From positions 1,737,501 to 1,801,500 of the forward strand of contig NZ_CP037920.1 in NCBI RefSeq assembly GCF_007748195.1: DNA of 64,000 bases, written 5' to 3'. The position numbers and the translations under genes were made by a program. A model generated the notes under the pieces. It was not told the DNA's origin. It saw only the letters and a list, made by a program, of their open reading frames with translations, and searched no databases. Origin of the DNA: Gimesia aquarii (GTDB lineage Bacteria; Planctomycetota; Planctomycetia; Planctomycetales; Planctomycetaceae). This document shows, piece by piece, positions 43,677 to 53,796 of the stretch (the first letter of the stretch is position 1; every line of letters begins with the position of its first letter).

Positions 43677-46346
43677 TCATTTACTGTTTTTACGAACTAC
43701 GATTAGCCAGTCCTCTTTTGGATCCACAGAAGGTGATCCCAGGTTGACTTTCCCTCCACCAGTAATTGACTTCACTGAACCTGTTGTTAAGTCGCCGCCA
43801 GCACGAGGATTAAACCACTTGACGTTAAAATCGCCCTTCGCGTCAGACAGATCCAGTTTCGTGGTTCCGCCTTGTGGAAGGTAAACCAGGTAGAGGTTTC
43901 CCTGCGAGGCGAAGCAGAATCGCGATACGCTATGATTTGGATTTCCAACCAGTTCATCGGCGTTTGTCATCGTCCAGAATGGGATGTGATGCTCGTGAAA
44001 GAAGTTGATTGCGATGCGGCAGTAGTCCCAGCTTTGATCGCGACTGCGCCAGTCTTCACACTTGAGATCGTTCTGGTCAAATTTATAGCCGAAGTAGTAT
44101 TCGTTGCCTGCTCCCCCCGCCATCAGTACGGCCCACAAGGTTTGTTTGCGGACTTTGTGCTGCGTATAAATCATCTTGCCTTCGCGGTCGCGTCCATCAA
44201 ATCCGTTGTAGCCGAGGTCGGGGCATTGAGCGTGAGCGGCACTCCCCGATTCATCAAAGGCGACGACCCACGGCTTGCCGGCTTTGGCGGACTCGCGAAC
44301 CCATTTCACTGTTTGAGCGTGTGTGGTTTCCAATTCACTGTTTTGTAGTGACACACCCGTCAGCTTCGACTTTTTTCCAATGAGTGACCGATAGACCTGA
44401 TCTTGTTGCCCTGGAAAAGTGTGAACGACAATATTGTGATTGTAAGCGTCCAGGTCGGCGATGTAATCAATCATCGCCTGCTGTTGTGCTGTCGTTTGAG
44501 TGTTTTCCTCGCCAAGGTTCCAATTCAACGCCAGGTTGTGACCAAAACGGGCGATCAACTCGCGACAATAAAGTTTTCGCTGCACGCCGAGATTGCCACC
44601 GTCCAGACTTTCGGGTACTCGCTTGTTCCCTTTCGTTTGATGGTCATCGTTTTCGGTTTCCTGCATCTTGAAATGGAGATACATGCCCAGGTTGGTTCCG
44701 TGGTCAAATACCATGCCCCATTGGTCAAGTTTCGAACAGTCGTAATGCAGCTTGTCGTCGCGATGGATAAAGGGCCAGACATTGTCGCCATCGCCGCCTG
44801 CGTTGTACGTCAGAAACGAAAATGCATTGCAACCCTTACCAGACAAGTAATTGATCGCACCAATCAGCCCCTTGCCCTTGTCATTTTTCCAGGTCGGATC
44901 GCCATCCTTCCAATCCCTCACATGCGGCCCCCACGTTTTCAACGGGACTCCTTTTGGTTTACCGGCGATGGTGTTGTCGAAGTCTTTGTAAGCGAGCAAT
45001 GTTTCGGGGGCATCTGCGCCAACTTTCAAAAAGTACTGTTTCGAGCCGGCGTGTTGCAGGTAGTGCTTGCCAACATACTGCAGCCGTCCATGCGCTCGAA
45101 AGTCTTTCCCCTCCTTGTCGCTGGCCGCCACTTCAAATTGCCCGGACACACCGTCATAGGGTGTGAGATTTTTCGTAGCGACCTTCGCGTCCAGCGCTGC
45201 GTTCTTGCCAGACGAGAATGAAATCTGATATTTCCACAAACCTGTTTGATCCGGAGCGAAATGGGCTCTCCAAACCGTTCCTGCTTCTGCGGAACTCTCG
45301 CCTGCGTTGCCATCTGCAGCGAAATAACCGGGAATTGTGTAGCTGGTTCCGCTGGAGTGTGTCAACAAAACAGTCATTCGATAATCGGTAAATGGATTCG
45401 GCGCGTTGTCTTTTTCGTGAGCATAAGGCCCAGCCAAAGATAGTGTGACCTTGTGCCACTGCCTGAGTTCGCCACTGATCGTAGCGTTGCCATCGCCGTT
45501 CGGCTGACGCGGCATTTGAAGCGGTTGGGAACTGGTGGATTTTGTGGGACTGGTGCCAGGTTCCTTGTTAATAGTGACACGCTGACTTCGCTTTGCCTTC
45601 ACATACGGAAACGGTTTGGGCAACTTTCCTTGATGGACAACCGAAGAAGGCCCTTTTCCCTGCGGACGTTTCAAGTTTCGGTCGGTTGTCATTAACCACT
45701 TATCAAACTCGAAGCCGTCTTCTCGCATCGAAAATTGGATCAGATGCGTACCCGCCTTTTGAATGTCCAGGAATACCTTGTAGGGTTCGCCGCAGTGTTC
45801 TTTTTTCGTACGCTGCCTGCTTTCCCACCACCACGATTGTTTTCCCTGACACCACTGCAATCTTTGCCCGCTGGCGGGCCACGTTCCGTCGATACCAACG
45901 TGCAGGCCGTTATCTTCCGTGCCTGTAGAATAAGCACGCGCCCAGACATAATACCGCCCTGGCGTTTTGAAATGCACTTTGTAATGAAGCACAGCCATTT
46001 TACCGGGTTCAGGTGAAAAGTTTTTTTGTTTGATCAATTTGTCGCTATGAGTTCGGCGCGTATCCGGCAAGATTTCCAGATAGGCTCCGCCACTTGCCCC
46101 GGCAACGTGCGGCGAATCACCATCTGGAGTGAGGTCGGGTGTCTGCCTGGAGTGTGTCAAATAAAATGCACGAACGTCGTGTTGCGTCTGTTTGAAATAG
46201 TGCTCCGCTTCGACGGAGACAATCCCCTCTTTTTCGCTGAAGACAAGGGAGTCGCGAGCAAGTGGTTCCCTGGAAGAAACAGACGAGGGTGCAAAGAGGC
46301 AAACGGTAATTACAGCTACTAGAAACTGAGAAATGAAATGTTGCAT
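43677..46346 (-). CDS. Secreted DUF5060 / glycoside-hydrolase-like protein
   Basis: This 889-residue protein has a signal peptide and then a carbohydrate-binding-like N-terminal domain at about 40-240 ([33 protein letters not shown]). A DUF5060 domain follows at about 295-410 ([33 protein letters not shown]). A TIM-barrel-like region at about 425-790 contains [14 protein letters not shown] and WVVAFDESG, with Glu residues that could be catalytic. A C-terminal putative collagen-binding-like domain ([18 protein letters not shown]) ends the protein. The family is associated with polysaccharide degradation. AGGA precedes the ATG. Confidence 0.82.
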
Positions 46347-46636: not shown

Positions 46637-48490
46637 TTACTTGGCGAGGGGCATGAGCACGTTAGGCTCTGGTTTTTCTTCGGGGGTTTCTTCGGCCAGG
46701 ACGGTTTCGCAGAAGAATTTCAATAATTGTTTGAAGTCTTCGTTGTCAACGCTTTCTGCCAGTTCTTCGGCGCGTGCTCGTGATTTGTCGACGAGTGCTT
46801 CCGCTTTTGTGAAGACGTCGCAGTCCTGGTATATTTTGCGTAAGCGACCAATTCGCAGGCCATCGGAAGGATTGCCGAGCAGAATGTCTTTCAAGTCTGC
46901 TTTTTGATGGTCGTCTGCCGTTTGCAGAGCCAGCGCCAGTAGTAGTGTGGGCCGCATTGCGAGTGCGTCCTGGCCAGTGATGAGCTTGTTATTGTCATCG
47001 CCCTGCCAGTCTTTGAGGTCGTTCAGAATCTGAAAGCCAACGCCGATGTGCCTTGAGAACGAAGAGATTAATTCCTCGTACTCTCCCACAGAACCGGTCA
47101 TCCGAATTCCCGCATACAGAGCGGCCTCGAAGGCGGGGGATGTCTTGAGGGCGTAAATCTGTAAGGCGTCGAGCGGCGCCAGTTCAAACGACTGGCTGTC
47201 CTGCCAGGACATTTCTGCGCCTTGACCTTCGCACAGCTTAATATGCGCGGCTGCCATCTTTTCGACTAAGTCTGATGCGGCTTCGGCACCGATGTCGGCA
47301 CGGGCTTCGTTTAGCAGGCGATAGCCGATGCCGATTAAGTAGTCACCAATGTTAATGGCCATGCCAGTGCCATGTTGTCGATGTAATGTTTCCTGGCCGT
47401 AGCGGTATTGGTCGTCATCTTCAATATCATCATGGATGAGAGACGCTTTGTGGAAGACTTCAATGGCCATCGCCGCTTTTTGAACGCCGAGCGGGTAACT
47501 CTGTTCTGGTTGATCCGTGTTTGTTGTGGATGTCTGGTTTTTGTTCAGAGCATTATAGGCTGCCAGGGTAATAAAGGGGCGGAATCGTTTTCCACCATGT
47601 TTCAGCCAGTCGTAGGCGATGGCTTCCGTCTTCCCCAGCGGAGTTTGAGCCGCCTGTTCCGTTTTTGTGCGGCGGGGAGGTAGAATCTGATCGAAGTTTT
47701 CTTCAAAGAGCGCGTTGGAAGCCCGCATCGTCGGCAGATAACTTCTGGTGAGCGGCTCTTCGAGGGGGCGATACTCTTCGAGCACTTCCCAGATCCAGGG
47801 TTCGTCCATTTTTGTATTTTTACAGTCACCGGAATGGAGGGGAATTGCATAGGAGGGCACACCGGCGATCAGAACTTTATCAATTGATTTTTCCAGCACG
47901 TTCAGGCAGGCGACTCCTAAAATGCCATCGACATAACCGCCGACGATGATTTTGAGCACTACGGGGGAGCCCTCAGCAACGAGCACCTTGTAGCCCAGCT
48001 TTTCAGCTTTGACTTTATAATCAGCAATCGAACAGGCACCGCATTTTTCGCAGTCCAGGCCGAACTCGTCGTATTCCGCCGGACAACCTTCGGCATGTTT
48101 CAAACAATGCGGCAGCAGCAAGAGGCGTCGCTCAAACGGGATCGCCAGAAATTGCCGTTTCCAGAAAAAGTTTCCGATCAAGACCATCATGAAGCCCAGA
48201 AACTTTTCAGGCTGTTCCATCCGCTCCAGCAGTTCGCGAGACCAGGCTTCCAGTGTCGCTTTGGTAAAGGGGTTGGAACAGTCGAGATGTTCGACGTACT
48301 TTTCCGCTTCCGCTTTCATCTCTTCGCGCAGGGCGAGTGTTTCCGGAACCGCTTTTAAGTGACTGGTACTTTGACGTTTTCGTTTTCTTTTGACTGGTTT
48401 CTTTTCTTCGGAAGCGTCTTGCGCAGGCTTTGCTGAGCCAGGGACGATATTATCTTCAGAATTTTCCTGGTCTAAAGGCGCGATGGACAC
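46637..48490 (-). CDS. DUF116 and polyprenyl diphosphate synthase fusion
   Basis: The N-terminal half (about 95-235) is a DUF116 domain with a Cys cluster: CLKHAEGC at 129-136, LDCEKCGAC with Cys147, Cys150 and Cys153, and later Cys195 and Cys223. A linker leads to a polyprenyl diphosphate synthase: GGKRFRP at 299-305 and the first Asp-rich motif HDDIEDD at 353-359. The second motif FQILNDLKD (486-494) has Asn in place of the usual first Asp. Synthases of this type condense isopentenyl diphosphate to C15-C30+ prenyl diphosphates. The start is GTG 48490, with GAGGAG 8 bases upstream. It is last in the operon, after the cyclase. Confidence 0.85.
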
Positions 48491-48571
48491 GAAACACTCC
48501 TCTATTGTAAGTAACTCAGCCGAGCGATGATCAAGTTATTGATTAAAGTTTGCTTGGGGATCGGGGGGGAC

Positions 48572-50434
48572 CTATTGTTTCTCGGTACTCATTATAGGGT
48601 AATCCTCTTCCGCAAGCGACAATCTTAAATTGTCATCAGTACATTTTTTTAAAACCATTTCTGCCCGATGCAGGGCGGAAACACTAAAGATAATTGGATA
48701 AAGTTGTTCGAAATACCATAATTTGGCAAAGTAAAAGCCAATCGGTGTGGATTCAGTAAAACCGTTTGTTTCCACCTGTTGCAACAGCCAGTTCAGACCC
48801 GAAGTAATGTTCGGATTGTCAGGATCAAGGCCCATTGCCAGTAAAGTGTCGACTGCTAAGGCGGTTTCTTCCACACTGGAGGGGGCTCCGGCATCACCGC
48901 CCCAACCACCATCAGTATTCTGTACGCTTTTCAAAAATTTGATGGCTTGTTCCGCCTGTGTGGAATCAGACATTTCCTGCGACGCATAAGCGGCTAACAC
49001 GCGCGCGGTGCCGTAAACCGGATTTTCATCATTCTTGATGTGCTGATTTCCAAACCAGAGTGGAAGCCAGGATCCATCGTTGCGTTGAACTGATGCCAGA
49101 TAACGAAACGAACGTTGGATGGCGTGTTCGGCACGTTTTCGCAATGGAATGTCCGCATCATCTGGCTCTGTTTCCAGCCAGGCTTGCAACGCACGAATGA
49201 CGTGTGCCGAAATATCAGCCGCACTCTGATCGAAGGGAAGCGTTCCCCAACCACGACAGAAGGTCGGCCAGCCCCCATTACTATTTTGCAAATCGAGAAG
49301 CCATTGGACGCCGTTACGTAAGGCGAGTCTCAATTCAGATGAGAGTTCATGTTCGGAATCTTCTGGTCTTAAATTCAATAATGCCAGAATGGCCCCGGGA
49401 GTATCATCGGCATCCGGCACGCCCCCCGGTAGATCGGTCCACGCCCAACCTCCCGGTTCCGCAGAAGTGTAAGGATGCAATTCCTGATATTGCTGTTGTA
49501 ATAACCATTGACGAATGGGGGCTTTTTCAAATTCGGAGAGGGTTCCCTGAATGGCATTCACGGAAAGAGTGGTGGTCCAAGTCGCCAGGTTGGTATCGAT
49601 GGGCCAACTGCCATCCGGTCTGGCGGAAGCGAGTAAAAATTCGAGCCCCTTGTTAACAACCGGGTGATCGACGAGACCCATTCCCGCCAGACTCATGGTG
49701 ACAAAACTAGTGAGCGGGGCCGCTTCCAGAAAACCACCGTTCGTGGGCTGAATCGAAATCAGCTTCTTGAGGCTTTTCTGAATCGACAGATTTCTGATGA
49801 TACGTGTGATCGGGTTCCTGGGCTTTTGGAAATGATGCCTTACTTGGCCGATGGCAATGAGCGCCGGCAGTGCATAGCTGACGACGGGCAATCGCACCGT
49901 CTTGTAAAAATTGGCAGGCAGACAGGACAATTCAAAGGGCAGGGCAGGGATGGTTTTCCAATCGACGAGTCCTGCGAGTGCACAATGTGTGAGGATCGGC
50001 ACTGAGAACGTTTTATCTTTGCCATAGCGGGCGATGACTGCCTCGACACCGCCGATGCGATCGATGTATTGTTTCGCATTGACGACAACCGTAGCAAATT
50101 TCTCTGTATTACACGTCGCATGAAATACGGCGTGGCAAAGCATACTCGTGGAAATGTTGCTGAAGCTTTTGACAGTGTCGCCCCAGCCGCCATCCTCATT
50201 TTGATGCGTGGCGATCCATTGAATACCTTGTTTGATATAGGAGTCGAGTGAGTGATCATCGTCCGGGCGGTGACGACGAATCATTTCAAGTGCCATGACT
50301 GCCGTGGCCGTTGAAAGCGCGGAAGTGGAAAGTTCTCCCTCCCAGTGACCGGCGTCGTTACGGGCAGAAAGTAATTCTGCCCGTGCTCGCTGGTATGCGG
50401 CTTGAACTCTCTGGTAGGAGATGCTTTCACTCAT
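48572..50434 (-). CDS. Class II terpene cyclase homologue (squalene-hopene-cyclase-like)
   Basis: The 620-residue protein has the alpha-alpha-barrel repeats of prenyltransferase/squalene oxidase proteins, with QW-type motifs: QNEDGGWGD near 78-86, QNSNGGWP at 383-390, QRNDGSW at 450-456 and QNTDGGWGG at 505-513. The catalytic acid DxDD motif is present as DADDT at 341-345, which protonates the isoprenoid in class II cyclases. The C-terminal FYFAKLWYFEQLYPIIFSVSAL resembles the cyclase ending. The usual hopene-cyclase WDT motif appears as WTT. It probably cyclises a linear isoprenoid made by the adjacent synthase. It follows the ferredoxin gene after 49 bp. Confidence 0.83.
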   Translation of the reverse strand: MSESISYQRVQAAYQRARAELLSARNDAGHWEGELSTSALSTATAVMALEMIRRHRPDDDHSLDSYIKQGIQWIATHQNEDGGWGDTVKSFSNISTSMLCHAVFHATCNTEKFATVVVNAKQYIDRIGGVEAVIARYGKDKTFSVPILTHCALAGLVDWKTIPALPFELSCLPANFYKTVRLPVVSYALPALIAIGQVRHHFQKPRNPITRIIRNLSIQKSLKKLISIQPTNGGFLEAAPLTSFVTMSLAGMGLVDHPVVNKGLEFLLASARPDGSWPIDTNLATWTTTLSVNAIQGTLSEFEKAPIRQWLLQQQYQELHPYTSAEPGGWAWTDLPGGVPDADDTPGAILALLNLRPEDSEHELSSELRLALRNGVQWLLDLQNSNGGWPTFCRGWGTLPFDQSAADISAHVIRALQAWLETEPDDADIPLRKRAEHAIQRSFRYLASVQRNDGSWLPLWFGNQHIKNDENPVYGTARVLAAYASQEMSDSTQAEQAIKFLKSVQNTDGGWGGDAGAPSSVEETALAVDTLLAMGLDPDNPNITSGLNWLLQQVETNGFTESTPIGFYFAKLWYFEQLYPIIFSVSALHRAEMVLKKCTDDNLRLSLAEEDYPIMSTEKQ

Positions 50435-50483
50435 TCCGATGTCTTATTTTTTAATCAGAGTTCTGTTTCAAATCATTGAAAGC

Positions 50484-51527
50484 CTATAAGTCCATGGCAT
50501 CCAGGCTGTCGATCAGCTCGTCTAACTCATCGCTGGTTTCTTGTGAAACCTTTAAACGATTGGGAATGCCTACTGTCATTCCCACAGCATCCCTTCCCTC
50601 GGCGACCAGTTCCACATCACGTTCTCTGGCTGCCATTTCCAATGCATCCGGTGCGCCGAATAATTTGGAGAGATCAATTTTCAAGCCGGCGACTTCACCA
50701 TCGGCACCAGCAATGCCCGGTGTTTTATGGCCGGGGAAGATAATCGCATTTTCCGGGCAGACGCGGCTACAGGCAGGACAGCCTTTTTTACAGCTATCCT
50801 GTTCTTCCACCAGAATTTGTCCCCCCTGATCGACGCCGTAGACACCGAACAGGCAAAAATCGATGCACTCCATGCAATTCGTACACAGGCTATAGTCAAT
50901 CACAGGATACCAGCGACGTTTGGTGGGTTCTAACTGGTTTGCTTCGTTTGCACTGCTATTGTCTTTCTGAGCGCTGATCGCATCCAGCGGTTTCAAATAC
51001 TTTTCCAGCTGTGCCGGTTTGGGGCTTTCCTGAATCACATTCATCAGCTGAAAGGTTTGCACCTGTGCATCCTGAGAGATGCGTTTGATTTCAGAAATGT
51101 AGTCTTCAGGGTTTGAACTGACTCGTAGATCAATCGAATAAATTTTGCGATCAGGGATTGTGTTTTGACGCTCCGGGTTTTCAAAGGGGGCCGATTTTTC
51201 CTCGGCTGCTTCCAGTTCTTCTTCGTCTTCATCAGTCTCTGCTTTTAACAGCACCAGTCCTTCCTGACCGCGTACATTTTGCCGATCGAGGACCCAGTGT
51301 GAAGCGCGCGGATACAGCCATGACAGGACGACCATATCACCGCGGATCGCCTGCAGAAACAGGGTTCCTGTGTGGTCGGCGGAAAGGTCATAGAGGTGAG
51401 GCACCAGAGAGACTTCAAGGTCGGGTTCCATCATGAGTGTTGCTGCCAGCGTTTCTTCCAACTCACGCTTGGCGGGATTTTTCCCCTGAGCCTGAGAGAT
51501 CACTACTGTCAATTTTTTATCAGCCAT
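50484..51527 (-). CDS. 2[4Fe-4S] ferredoxin-domain protein of a terpene-type operon
   Basis: The N-terminal part (1-165) is an uncharacterised alpha/beta region ([12 protein letters not shown], then [16 protein letters not shown]). A ferredoxin domain lies at 205-265 with [11 protein letters not shown] (Cys215, 218, 221, 225) and [13 protein letters not shown] (Cys246, 250, 253, 257), two complete [4Fe-4S] cluster sets. A helical tail follows. It should carry electrons in the cytoplasm to or from an unknown partner. AAAGG precedes the ATG. It lies between the GcvH-like gene (51 bp) and the cyclase gene (49 bp), implying a joint role in one pathway. Confidence 0.82.
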
Positions 51528-51578
51528 TCTGAAAACCTTTTCAACGCGAAACGAAAACGGTAAACCGTTTGTTGTTTT

Positions 51579-52031
51579 TTAGTTGAGCTGTCCTTTAATC
51601 ATCCGCTGGGTCTGCTCCCAGCCGTCATCTAATACTTGCATGTACTCGGATGGGGTCAACCACTGTGCCTTCGACTCCATCTCAAATAACCAACCTTTAT
51701 CGTAATTATCCGCCTGATTGATGGCGGAGGGATCGTTTAACAATTCTTCATTAAATTCCAGGATCTGGCCCATTGAGGGGGCATACAGATCGGATAATGC
51801 TTTTGAACTTTCAATCTCTCCAATCTTCTGTTTTTCCTGAACACGGGTAAATGGGTCAATAGCCCAGTCCAGAAAATAGACATCCTGTAATAATCGAACC
51901 GAATACGCAGTAAAACCCACCCGCCAATGATCTTGCTCAGGCATGAACCACAGGTGTGATTTACTATAAACACGGTCCTGAGGAATTCGGGCTTCGAAAT
52001 TCCCCATCATAAAGACAAGATCGTCAGGCAT
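51579..52031 (-). CDS. Orphan GcvH-like lipoyl carrier protein
   Basis: The 150-residue protein has a GcvH-type lipoyl domain. The modification site is EIESSKALSDLYAP, with Lys77 where glycine-cleavage H proteins carry lipoyl-lysine (ESVKAxSDLYAP), and it continues NDPSAINQADNYDKGWLFEME, also H-protein-like. The first 40 residues are unusual and Trp/Met-rich. It lies apart from any gcvT or gcvP gene, at the head of the terpene-type operon. Lipoyl carriers such as the LbpA proteins serve sulfur pathways rather than glycine cleavage, so another role is possible. Confidence 0.82.
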   Translation of the reverse strand: MPDDLVFMMGNFEARIPQDRVYSKSHLWFMPEQDHWRVGFTAYSVRLLQDVYFLDWAIDPFTRVQEKQKIGEIESSKALSDLYAPSMGQILEFNEELLNDPSAINQADNYDKGWLFEMESKAQWLTPSEYMQVLDDGWEQTQRMIKGQLN

Positions 52032-52536: not shown

Positions 52537-53796
52537 ATGTTGTATGTACCTATCGTTGATTTGTTCAAAATCTCAGGCATGATACCAAAACAAAAAGACC
52601 TTTCTAATTGGGATGATCCGACTTTGTTATTCAAAAACGAAACGTTTGATGCTGCCTCGTTTGCTGCAAATGAAAGCACTGATTCCACCCAGGCAAAATA
52701 CGAGCGCATTCAGGAATATCTCAAAACACAGATCAGAGAAGGGCAACTTCCGCCGGGAACAGCGCTTCCCTCTGAACAACAGTTAGCAAATTTGTTTGAA
52801 AGTGCACGCAGTACTGTCAGACAGGCGATGGGAATGTTGGAGCGTGAGGGACTCGTCAGTCGGGTTCAGGGAAAAGGGACTTTCGTGCATGAAAATGCGC
52901 GACAAAGACTGGCATCCGGGCTCGACATTTTGGCATTGGTGATTCCCGAAGTGTTATCCGGATTTTATCCTTCCCTGCAACATAGCTTTGAGGAATCAGC
53001 CAGACACTCTCAAAACCAGATGATGGTTTGCTGCACGCGCAATAATATTGACAAACAAGGTAATGCCATTCTGCAGTTGATCGATAATCAGGTGGGAGGC
53101 GTGGCCATTGTGCCAGCCAGTACGCCTCCGACTCCGGCGTATCAAATTCGTCAGCTACAGAAAGCAGGCATTCCGGTTGTTTTTTGCCATCGTCCCGTTG
53201 AGGGGATCATCGCTCCTTTATTGGGGCTCCCCTATAAAGAGATTGGCAGACTGGCGGGTGAATCACTGGTGAAGCTGGGGCATCGTCGTTTTGCCTTTTT
53301 TGCACCGCATTGCACTCACACCACAGATATGTATTTGGATGGTTTTCAGAAGTCATTAGCCGAAGAGGGCTGCGAACTACCAGAAGACCATTGCTATTTT
53401 GGTGAAGACGGCGTGATCGATATGCAGAAACTCGATGCCGATATTGTGAGCACATTAAAACGTTTGATGGAAAGTAAAGACCGACCGACTGCCATCTTTA
53501 CGACCTTTGATTCGATGGCAGAGCGAATCTATTTGCATTTGAACAAAATGGGAATCCGCATGCCCGAAGAGATTTCGTTGATTGGAGTCGGCGACAAAAT
53601 TCGCCATAGCGTGCTCCAGCAACACATCGCTTCGGTCACAATCGATGAAACTCAACTGGGCCATCGCGCGGCTGAGCTACTTAACAAGATGCGTAGTGGA
53701 GAAATCCCGATCGAATCTTCTGAATCATACATTATTCCTGCAGAAGTTTATCATGGCACCACACTTGGAGCTATGAATGAAGTTGAGATGACATAA
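52537..53796 (+). CDS. GntR-family regulator with LacI-type ligand-binding domain
   Basis: A winged helix-turn-helix of the GntR type lies at about 60-125 (QIREGQLPPGTALPSEQQLANLFESARSTVRQAMGMLEREGLVSRVQGKGTFV). A periplasmic-binding-protein-like domain follows at about 140-405 (ILALVIPEVLSGFYPSLQHSF, VIPASTPPTPAYQIRQLQKAGIPVVFCHRP, LIGVGDKIRHSV), as in LacI/GalR regulators. Such AraR-like proteins sense a sugar and control transport or degradation genes. The start is uncertain: ATG 52537 lacks a ribosome site and ATG 52579 is an alternative that keeps the DNA-binding domain whole. It may regulate the following DUF1559 unit or the divergent operon. Confidence 0.85.
   Translation: MLYVPIVDLFKISGMIPKQKDLSNWDDPTLLFKNETFDAASFAANESTDSTQAKYERIQEYLKTQIREGQLPPGTALPSEQQLANLFESARSTVRQAMGMLEREGLVSRVQGKGTFVHENARQRLASGLDILALVIPEVLSGFYPSLQHSFEESARHSQNQMMVCCTRNNIDKQGNAILQLIDNQVGGVAIVPASTPPTPAYQIRQLQKAGIPVVFCHRPVEGIIAPLLGLPYKEIGRLAGESLVKLGHRRFAFFAPHCTHTTDMYLDGFQKSLAEEGCELPEDHCYFGEDGVIDMQKLDADIVSTLKRLMESKDRPTAIFTTFDSMAERIYLHLNKMGIRMPEEISLIGVGDKIRHSVLQQHIASVTIDETQLGHRAAELLNKMRSGEIPIESSESYIIPAEVYHGTTLGAMNEVEMT

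Follow-up and report, generated by a model that had tools for sequence, protein, structure and literature searches.

A 64,000-nucleotide stretch of the Gimesia aquarii genome (contig NZ_CP037920.1, positions 1,737,501 to 1,801,500; G000:C1:1737501-1801500 in our numbering, and the window below) carries an operon whose four genes are part of a larger conserved biosynthetic module. The host is a planctomycete with a 7.4 Mb genome in a single contig. The operon encodes, in order, a GcvH-like lipoyl carrier, a 2[4Fe-4S] protein (FER), a class II (DxDD) cyclase and a fusion of a DUF116 domain with a polyprenyl diphosphate synthase (DUF116-PPS). The core of the module comprises the last three and two families encoded outside the window, RS1, a radical S-adenosylmethionine (SAM) enzyme, and TOR, a toroid protein of about 300 amino acids (aa). 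The reading we prefer, at a probability of roughly 0.55, is that the module would build a cyclic isoprenoid from a long polyprenyl diphosphate, that a radical SAM enzyme fed by the iron-sulfur (Fe-S) proteins would then modify it, and that the product is undescribed. The enzyme superfamilies involved are known, but their combination appears to be undescribed.

An earlier note on the window had described four same-strand genes in this order, separated by 51, 49 and 81 bp, and the open reading frames (ORFs) and Pfam matches bear out this description: along the minus strand from the GcvH-like gene to DUF116-PPS, all four ORFs are open and keep their catalytic residues. The note had also named a lack of shared gene order in related genomes as the result that would count against it, and its claim came through that comparison. 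The same four-gene order occurs in another genome of the genus (L033), in L036, L039/L092 and L075, and in L038 with a small extra ORF, and the parts co-occur across the phylum.

The wider gene set was defined from the neighbourhoods of DUF116-PPS in a search of Planctomycetota (149 genomes, drawn from a larger group) and in a scan of named genome contigs. The scan kept 80 of 553 relatives, so the phylum spread is a lower bound and the proportions are no census; gene calls are simple ORF picks, the sorting profiles were built from the same loci, and many loci are short contigs. Recurrent partners are the GcvH-like protein, a CobW-type GTPase, a small cysteine protein (SFER), FER, RS1 or, in some loci, RS2 (a second radical SAM type akin to those that bind B12), TOR, the cyclase and, in part of the loci, a cysteine desulfurase. 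RS1 and TOR, although absent from the window, cluster with the same genes in distant relatives. The 37 neighbourhoods from the Planctomycetota search contain the cyclase in 22 cases, TOR in 23, FER in 23, RS1 in 17 and RS2 in four; the corresponding figures for the 67 named loci are 46, 28, 28, 27 and five. Nearly all partner genes lie on the same strand in both sets, which include lone paralogues and many loci truncated at contig ends. By record title, at least 13 loci belong to Bacteroidota (Draconibacterium, Prevotella, Parabacteroides, Tannerella and others), and 10 of the 13 listed show the complete one-strand order FER-RS1-PPS-TOR-cyclase; L121 is without a called FER, and contig ends truncate L122 and L123. 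Further loci come from Verrucomicrobium (L134: SFER, FER, RS1, PPS, TOR and cyclase), Lentisphaerae (L135: RS1-PPS-TOR-cyclase), Armatimonadota (L093: FER, RS2, cyclase, PPS and TOR) and Kiritimatiellota (L094: cyclase and PPS only).

Presence and absence tell the same story. Among the 149 Planctomycetota genomes, DUF116-PPS (at least 130 bits) is found in 38, TOR (E 1e-15) in 35, the cyclase (E 1e-60) in 34 and RS1 (at least 490 bits) in 29, with ten more genomes reaching RS1 only at 250 bits or less. DUF116-PPS shares 34 genomes with TOR, 33 with the cyclase and 29, that is every RS1 genome, with RS1; Fisher p values for the core pairs run from 1e-23 to 1e-29, a statistic that ignores kinship. 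The host genome has a single intact copy each of TOR, RS1 and CobW. In G087, of the same family, RS1, CobW, the GcvH-like protein, FER, TOR, PPS and the cyclase all lie within about 21 kb, and G069, also of the host's family, keeps only a neighbourless DUF116-PPS, with TOR, RS1, CobW and the cyclase all missing at the thresholds used. Because the four-gene order recurs in relatives and the parts co-occur across the phylum, chance is excluded as the cause of the clustering. An explanation by unrelated genes that are neighbours by accident could appeal to the dispersal of the parts in the window's own family, but the clusters in distant phyla and the near-perfect co-occurrence already refute it, and we regard it as vanishingly improbable.

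Hopanoid, sterol, C35 and meroterpenoid routes use class II cyclases, and the window enzyme has the expected features: a DxDD motif (DADD, residues 341-344, invariant in 20 of 20 sequences) in a toroid like that of squalene-hopene cyclase (SHC), with its PDxDDT falling on that of SHC 1gsz in a profile-PDB alignment. Could the operon then be a hopanoid or other squalene-derived branch, and its cyclase an ordinary squalene cyclase? The SHC-like domains, the DxDD motif and two squalene/phytoene synthase (SQS_PSY) genes in the host genome would suit that explanation. However, the window cyclase reaches 136.8 bits with the hopene cyclase model TIGR01507 (best stretch 90.3), far short of the cut-off of 431.1, whereas a separate host gene at G000:C1:4330834-4332864 exceeds it with 686.7 bits. 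With a profile of our own, family members score at least 605.8 and SHC rows at most 147.5 (30 SHC rows, about five of them probably wrong-frame ORFs). The split between the families is drawn from these score gaps and not from the cyclase/SHC tree, since tree support is only 54; about five SHC rows in it (L212, L215, L218, L221 and L223) sit on very long branches and are probable wrong-frame ORFs. On sequence scores, then, the window cyclase is a member of a family distinct from SHC. Moreover, 10 of the 34 cyclase carriers (G010, G025, G031, G036, G057, G079, G098, G114, G126 and G145) yielded no SQS_PSY match at E 1e-10. Several of these assemblies are incomplete, although G057 has a rated completeness of 99%; host-made squalene is therefore unlikely as the general substrate. 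The family scores, the separate SHC and the distribution of SQS_PSY led us to reject the hopanoid branch, which we consider very unlikely.

Other class II systems offer partial likenesses. The hopanoid route shares with the window the two-domain toroid with DxDD, but the window set has its own prenyl synthase, a distinct cyclase family, 10 of 34 carriers unmatched by SQS_PSY and a separate true SHC in the host genome. The C35 terpene route of Bacillus runs through a heptaprenyl synthase, YtpB and SqhC. It too leads from a long prenyl diphosphate to an SHC-like cyclase (names in PMC7839719), whereas the window system adds a radical SAM enzyme, Fe-S proteins, the DUF116 fusion and TOR. The merosterolic acid cyclase MstE has the same class II fold, but its substrate is a prenylated benzoate, and no aromatic prenyltransferase was noticed among the module neighbours.

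The synthase half of the fusion has the two Asp-rich motifs and the GGKRxRP motif of trans-polyprenyl diphosphate synthases, together with a matching Foldseek result. The first Asp-rich motif is DDIED and the second NDLKD, the latter DDLxD in most of 21 aligned relatives. Lys348-Ala349-Ser350 is invariant in 42 of 42 sequences, and the geranylgeranyl diphosphate (GGPP) synthase of Pyrococcus, the closest solved structure, has Asn-Tyr-Ser at the positions of Lys-Ala-Ser. In work on octaprenyl synthases, a small residue before the first Asp-rich motif is said to permit longer chains; with Ala-Ser as the gate before that motif, the window product would probably be longer than C20. The DUF116 domain contains seven cysteines at residues 129-223. 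A structural model of the fusion has a predicted local distance difference test score (pLDDT) of 85, but the fold comparison is uninformative on DUF116, as the top 50 Foldseek matches are all prenyl synthases. An identical type of fusion, Psta_0175 of Pirellula staleyi, is mentioned in one sentence of a 2015 paper that suggests a role for DUF116 in electron transfer (PMC5898192); unlike here, section 3.6 of that paper describes neither a cyclase nor a radical SAM partner, and neither an operon nor a pathway. In the sister genome G048, a 70-residue stretch at G048:C1:3046868-3047077 matches the C-terminal end portion of the synthase at 94% identity and is likely a fragment duplication.

TOR and RS1 raise an alternative, in which a protein or peptide is the target of the toroid proteins and RS1, by prenylation or radical peptide maturation. 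The TOR model (mean pLDDT 92) most resembles the RabGGTase beta family in the PDB (template modelling (TM) score 0.71), followed by MstE (0.60), so its predicted fold is that of a protein prenyltransferase beta subunit. In those subunits the zinc ligands are D-x-C and H. TOR has D-x-L and Y there, equivalence being judged by motif position, and so does not keep the ligands; nor was an alpha subunit noticed. RS1 has the radical SAM motif CxxxCxxC, with C58, C62 and C65 in 41 of 41 sequences and the motif present in the host-genome copy, and three further invariant cysteines. It falls far below every named NCBIfam radical SAM cut-off shown (best 78.6 against 525; HpnH 39.4 against 225.05), and in the PDB it comes closest to the sactipeptide maturase SkfB (E 3.4e-22). 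Besides the lost zinc ligands, the DxDD kept by the cyclase speaks against a protein or peptide target, as does the lack of a conserved short gene among neighbours of at least 90 aa, a search in which shorter precursor genes were not looked for. We hold this alternative to be improbable. The strict pairing of RS1 with FER would fit the latter, a dicluster ferredoxin, as its putative dedicated reductant. All eight cluster cysteines of FER are invariant in 51 sequences, and its N-terminal part in the window's family corresponds to the SFER that distant relatives encode as a separate protein, but has lost the cysteines while keeping the PRA motif; in Bacteroidota the N-terminal part of FER carries the SFER cysteines. 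A suspected likeness of SFER to the N-terminus of HdrA found no support, with no Pfam or NCBIfam match and no PDB match better than E 0.64.

The GcvH-like protein keeps its predicted lipoyl lysine (Lys77) in 28 of 28 sequences, one of which, from L134, looks like ordinary GcvH. A role in glycine cleavage was rejected: the protein is below both curated gcvH cut-offs (87.4 against 117 and 76.5 against 115.85), and the gcvH that exceeds the cut-off adjoins gcvPA and gcvPB elsewhere, in L071. The nearest described analogue is LbpA, a GcvH homologue that serves as a carrier in sHdr sulfur oxidation (PMC10332631); like the window protein it stands apart from glycine cleavage and alongside Fe-S proteins, but the window set has a prenyl synthase and a cyclase, and no Hdr model was over cut-off among the cluster proteins scanned, HdrA models matching the Fer4 region only. 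This analogy lends something to the idea that RS1 inserts sulfur into the cyclic prenoid, the sulfur passing from desulfurase to lipoyl carrier, as do the counts of the GcvH-like protein, CobW and cysteine desulfurase in the Planctomycetota neighbourhoods (18, 15 and eight of 37). In the 67 named loci the three counts are nine, nine and one. Most Bacteroidota loci do without these genes (GcvH-like protein and desulfurase called in none of the 13 listed, CobW in one), and desulfurases also serve Fe-S assembly; the sulfur route seems to us quite unlikely. Since no lipoyl carrier was called in those Bacteroidota clusters, it looks accessory to the module. The earlier note had proposed a cyclic isoprenoid, modified or provided with its precursor by a redox or lipoyl-dependent step. 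This is borne out in part: the genes form a conserved unit, the synthase and cyclase that would act on the prenyl chain have intact catalytic residues, and some redox chemistry is likely. The lipoyl carrier has no central place in the set, and the note had missed two proteins encoded outside the window, the radical SAM protein as principal redox enzyme and the second toroid protein.

From gene content, conservation, co-occurrence, intact residues and predicted folds we infer the reactions of the module and their order. The PPS domain would build a linear prenyl diphosphate, probably longer than C20, and the cyclase would protonate and cyclise this chain or a derivative. TOR, with the fold of a protein prenyltransferase beta subunit and none of its zinc ligands, may bind and position the prenyl group, cyclise it further or transfer it. 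On the cyclic prenoid, RS1 would then form a bond at an unactivated carbon, drawing low-potential electrons from FER and possibly from the cysteine-rich DUF116 domain as well. In Planctomycetota and some Verrucomicrobiota, the lipoylated GcvH paralogue, the CobW-type GTPase and sometimes the cysteine desulfurase would assist, perhaps in supplying thiol or sulfur.

Several observations weigh against this scheme. DUF116-PPS occurs without TOR in G028, G069, G075 and G089, without the cyclase in G028, G041, G065, G069 and G075, and without strong RS1 in nine genomes, in four of which (G041, G107, G114 and G145) RS2 is called beside PPS; G010 has TOR and the cyclase without DUF116-PPS. Some of these assemblies are incomplete. 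The parts are dispersed in the host genome. The fusion can exist without the rest of the set, as the lone genes L041 (G069) and L042 (G087) have no cyclase, TOR or RS1 called alongside; the second copy in G087 is a paralogue, because that genome holds the complete set elsewhere. The step from an Ala-Ser gate to a probable long chain draws on earlier work on octaprenyl synthases and not on computation. RS1 has its nearest annotated relatives, all far under cut-off, among peptide maturases and among haem or cofactor enzymes; its substrate may therefore be a peptide or a protein.

The neighbours of some clusters bring up a further alternative, a prenyl quinone or some other redox-active lipid of an electron transport chain as the product. 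After the core, L064, L117, L119, L123, L124 and L125 carry pyrroloquinoline quinone (PQQ)-like propellers together with a Tat-type ferredoxin and a polyferredoxin of the membrane, and L124 and L125 also have NuoE/NuoF-like genes. Several loci of this kind are from Bacteroidota; L064 and L124 are planctomycete. A family of about 185 aa, A9, with a chorismate-lyase signal, lies just downstream of PPS in L038, L088, L126 and others, with many Pirellulaceae-type loci among those that have it after PPS. However, no such redox genes surround the compact operons in L118 (the five-gene operon of Draconibacterium aestuarii, L118:8012-14208), L130 and L133. The chorismate-lyase signal is subthreshold (best E 0.021, in two of 14 members, across Pfam, NCBIfam, PDB and genome searches), a weak lead. 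A9 occurs in 24 of the 149 genomes, 19 with DUF116-PPS and five without, and also in G069. A redox lipid of this kind is unlikely. A broader proposal, suggested by the redox genes beside the core in several loci, is that a new cross-phylum class of cyclic isoprenoids, formed by radical SAM chemistry on a class II-cyclised long prenyl chain, might act in the membranes of Bacteroidota, Planctomycetota and Verrucomicrobiota as a redox cofactor; we think it doubtful. Two loci from Planctomycetota and Pirellulales metagenome-assembled genomes (L115 and L139) represent a diverged second type, in which a DUF116-PPS of 655-677 aa is followed by an A9 protein; further along come a radical SAM protein and a cyclase, the latter related only weakly (118-128 bits).

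The earlier note knew of no described pathway with this gene set, and searches of one open-access library (subscription journals and preprints not covered) likewise found none. The closest reports are PMC5898192 and PMC8303584, the latter treating in general terms planctomycete clusters for terpenoids that hold polyprenyl synthetases and terpene cyclases. If our preferred reading is right, planctomycetes, Verrucomicrobiota and gut or marine Bacteroidota would gain a further lipid class, from a widely shared route in which a class II cyclase is coupled to a prenyl synthase of its own, to a radical SAM enzyme and to Fe-S proteins dedicated to the route. Testable partners would be at hand for the functionally uncharacterised domain DUF116 and for an orphan lipoyl carrier, and the compact five-gene operon could be expressed as a whole.

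Table 1. Operon genes, functional sites and dispersed module parts. Plain numbers are window positions; entries beginning with G000:C1 are positions in the host genome.
Feature	Position	Strand	Evidence
GcvH-like lipoyl carrier, 150 aa, first operon gene	51579..52031	-	GCV_H 2.9e-20 (Pfam)
Predicted lipoyl lysine codon, Lys77 in ESSKA	51801..51803	-	Lys77 kept in 28/28
2[4Fe-4S] protein (FER), 347 aa	50484..51527	-	Fer4 models (Pfam), alignments
Eight cluster cysteines of FER, Cys215-Cys257	50757..50885	-	All eight invariant in 51 sequences
Class II (DxDD) cyclase, 620 aa	48572..50434	-	SQHop_cyclase_C 1.2e-41, SQHop_cyclase_N 1.3e-29 (Pfam)
Cyclase DADD motif, residues 341-344	49403..49414	-	PDxDDT columns invariant in 20/20
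DUF116-PPS fusion, 617 aa, GTG start	46637..48490	-	polyprenyl_synt 1.8e-43, DUF116 5e-37 (Pfam)
DUF116 domain, about residues 89-236, seven conserved cysteines	47783..48226	-	Pfam, cysteine conservation
Polyprenyl synthase domain, about residues 291-541	46868..47620	-	Pfam, Foldseek best match GGPP synthase 1wy0
TOR of host genome	G000:C1:1860856-1861767		Single copy, intact ORF with motifs, strict threshold
RS1 of host genome	G000:C1:2026278-2027468		Single copy, intact ORF with motifs, strict threshold
CobW GTPase of host genome	G000:C1:6540499-6541605		Single copy, intact ORF with motifs, strict threshold
A9 copy in host genome	G000:C1:2000498-2001016		

Two further genes flank the operon in the window. 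Divergent from it, at 52537-53796, lies a GntR-type regulator with a periplasmic-binding-protein-like domain, which among the loci clustered adjoins the operon only in the same-genus genome. Downstream, at 43677-46346, lies a gene for a protein of 889 aa that has DUF5060 and collagen-binding-like domains; its only clustered counterpart is in the same-genus locus.

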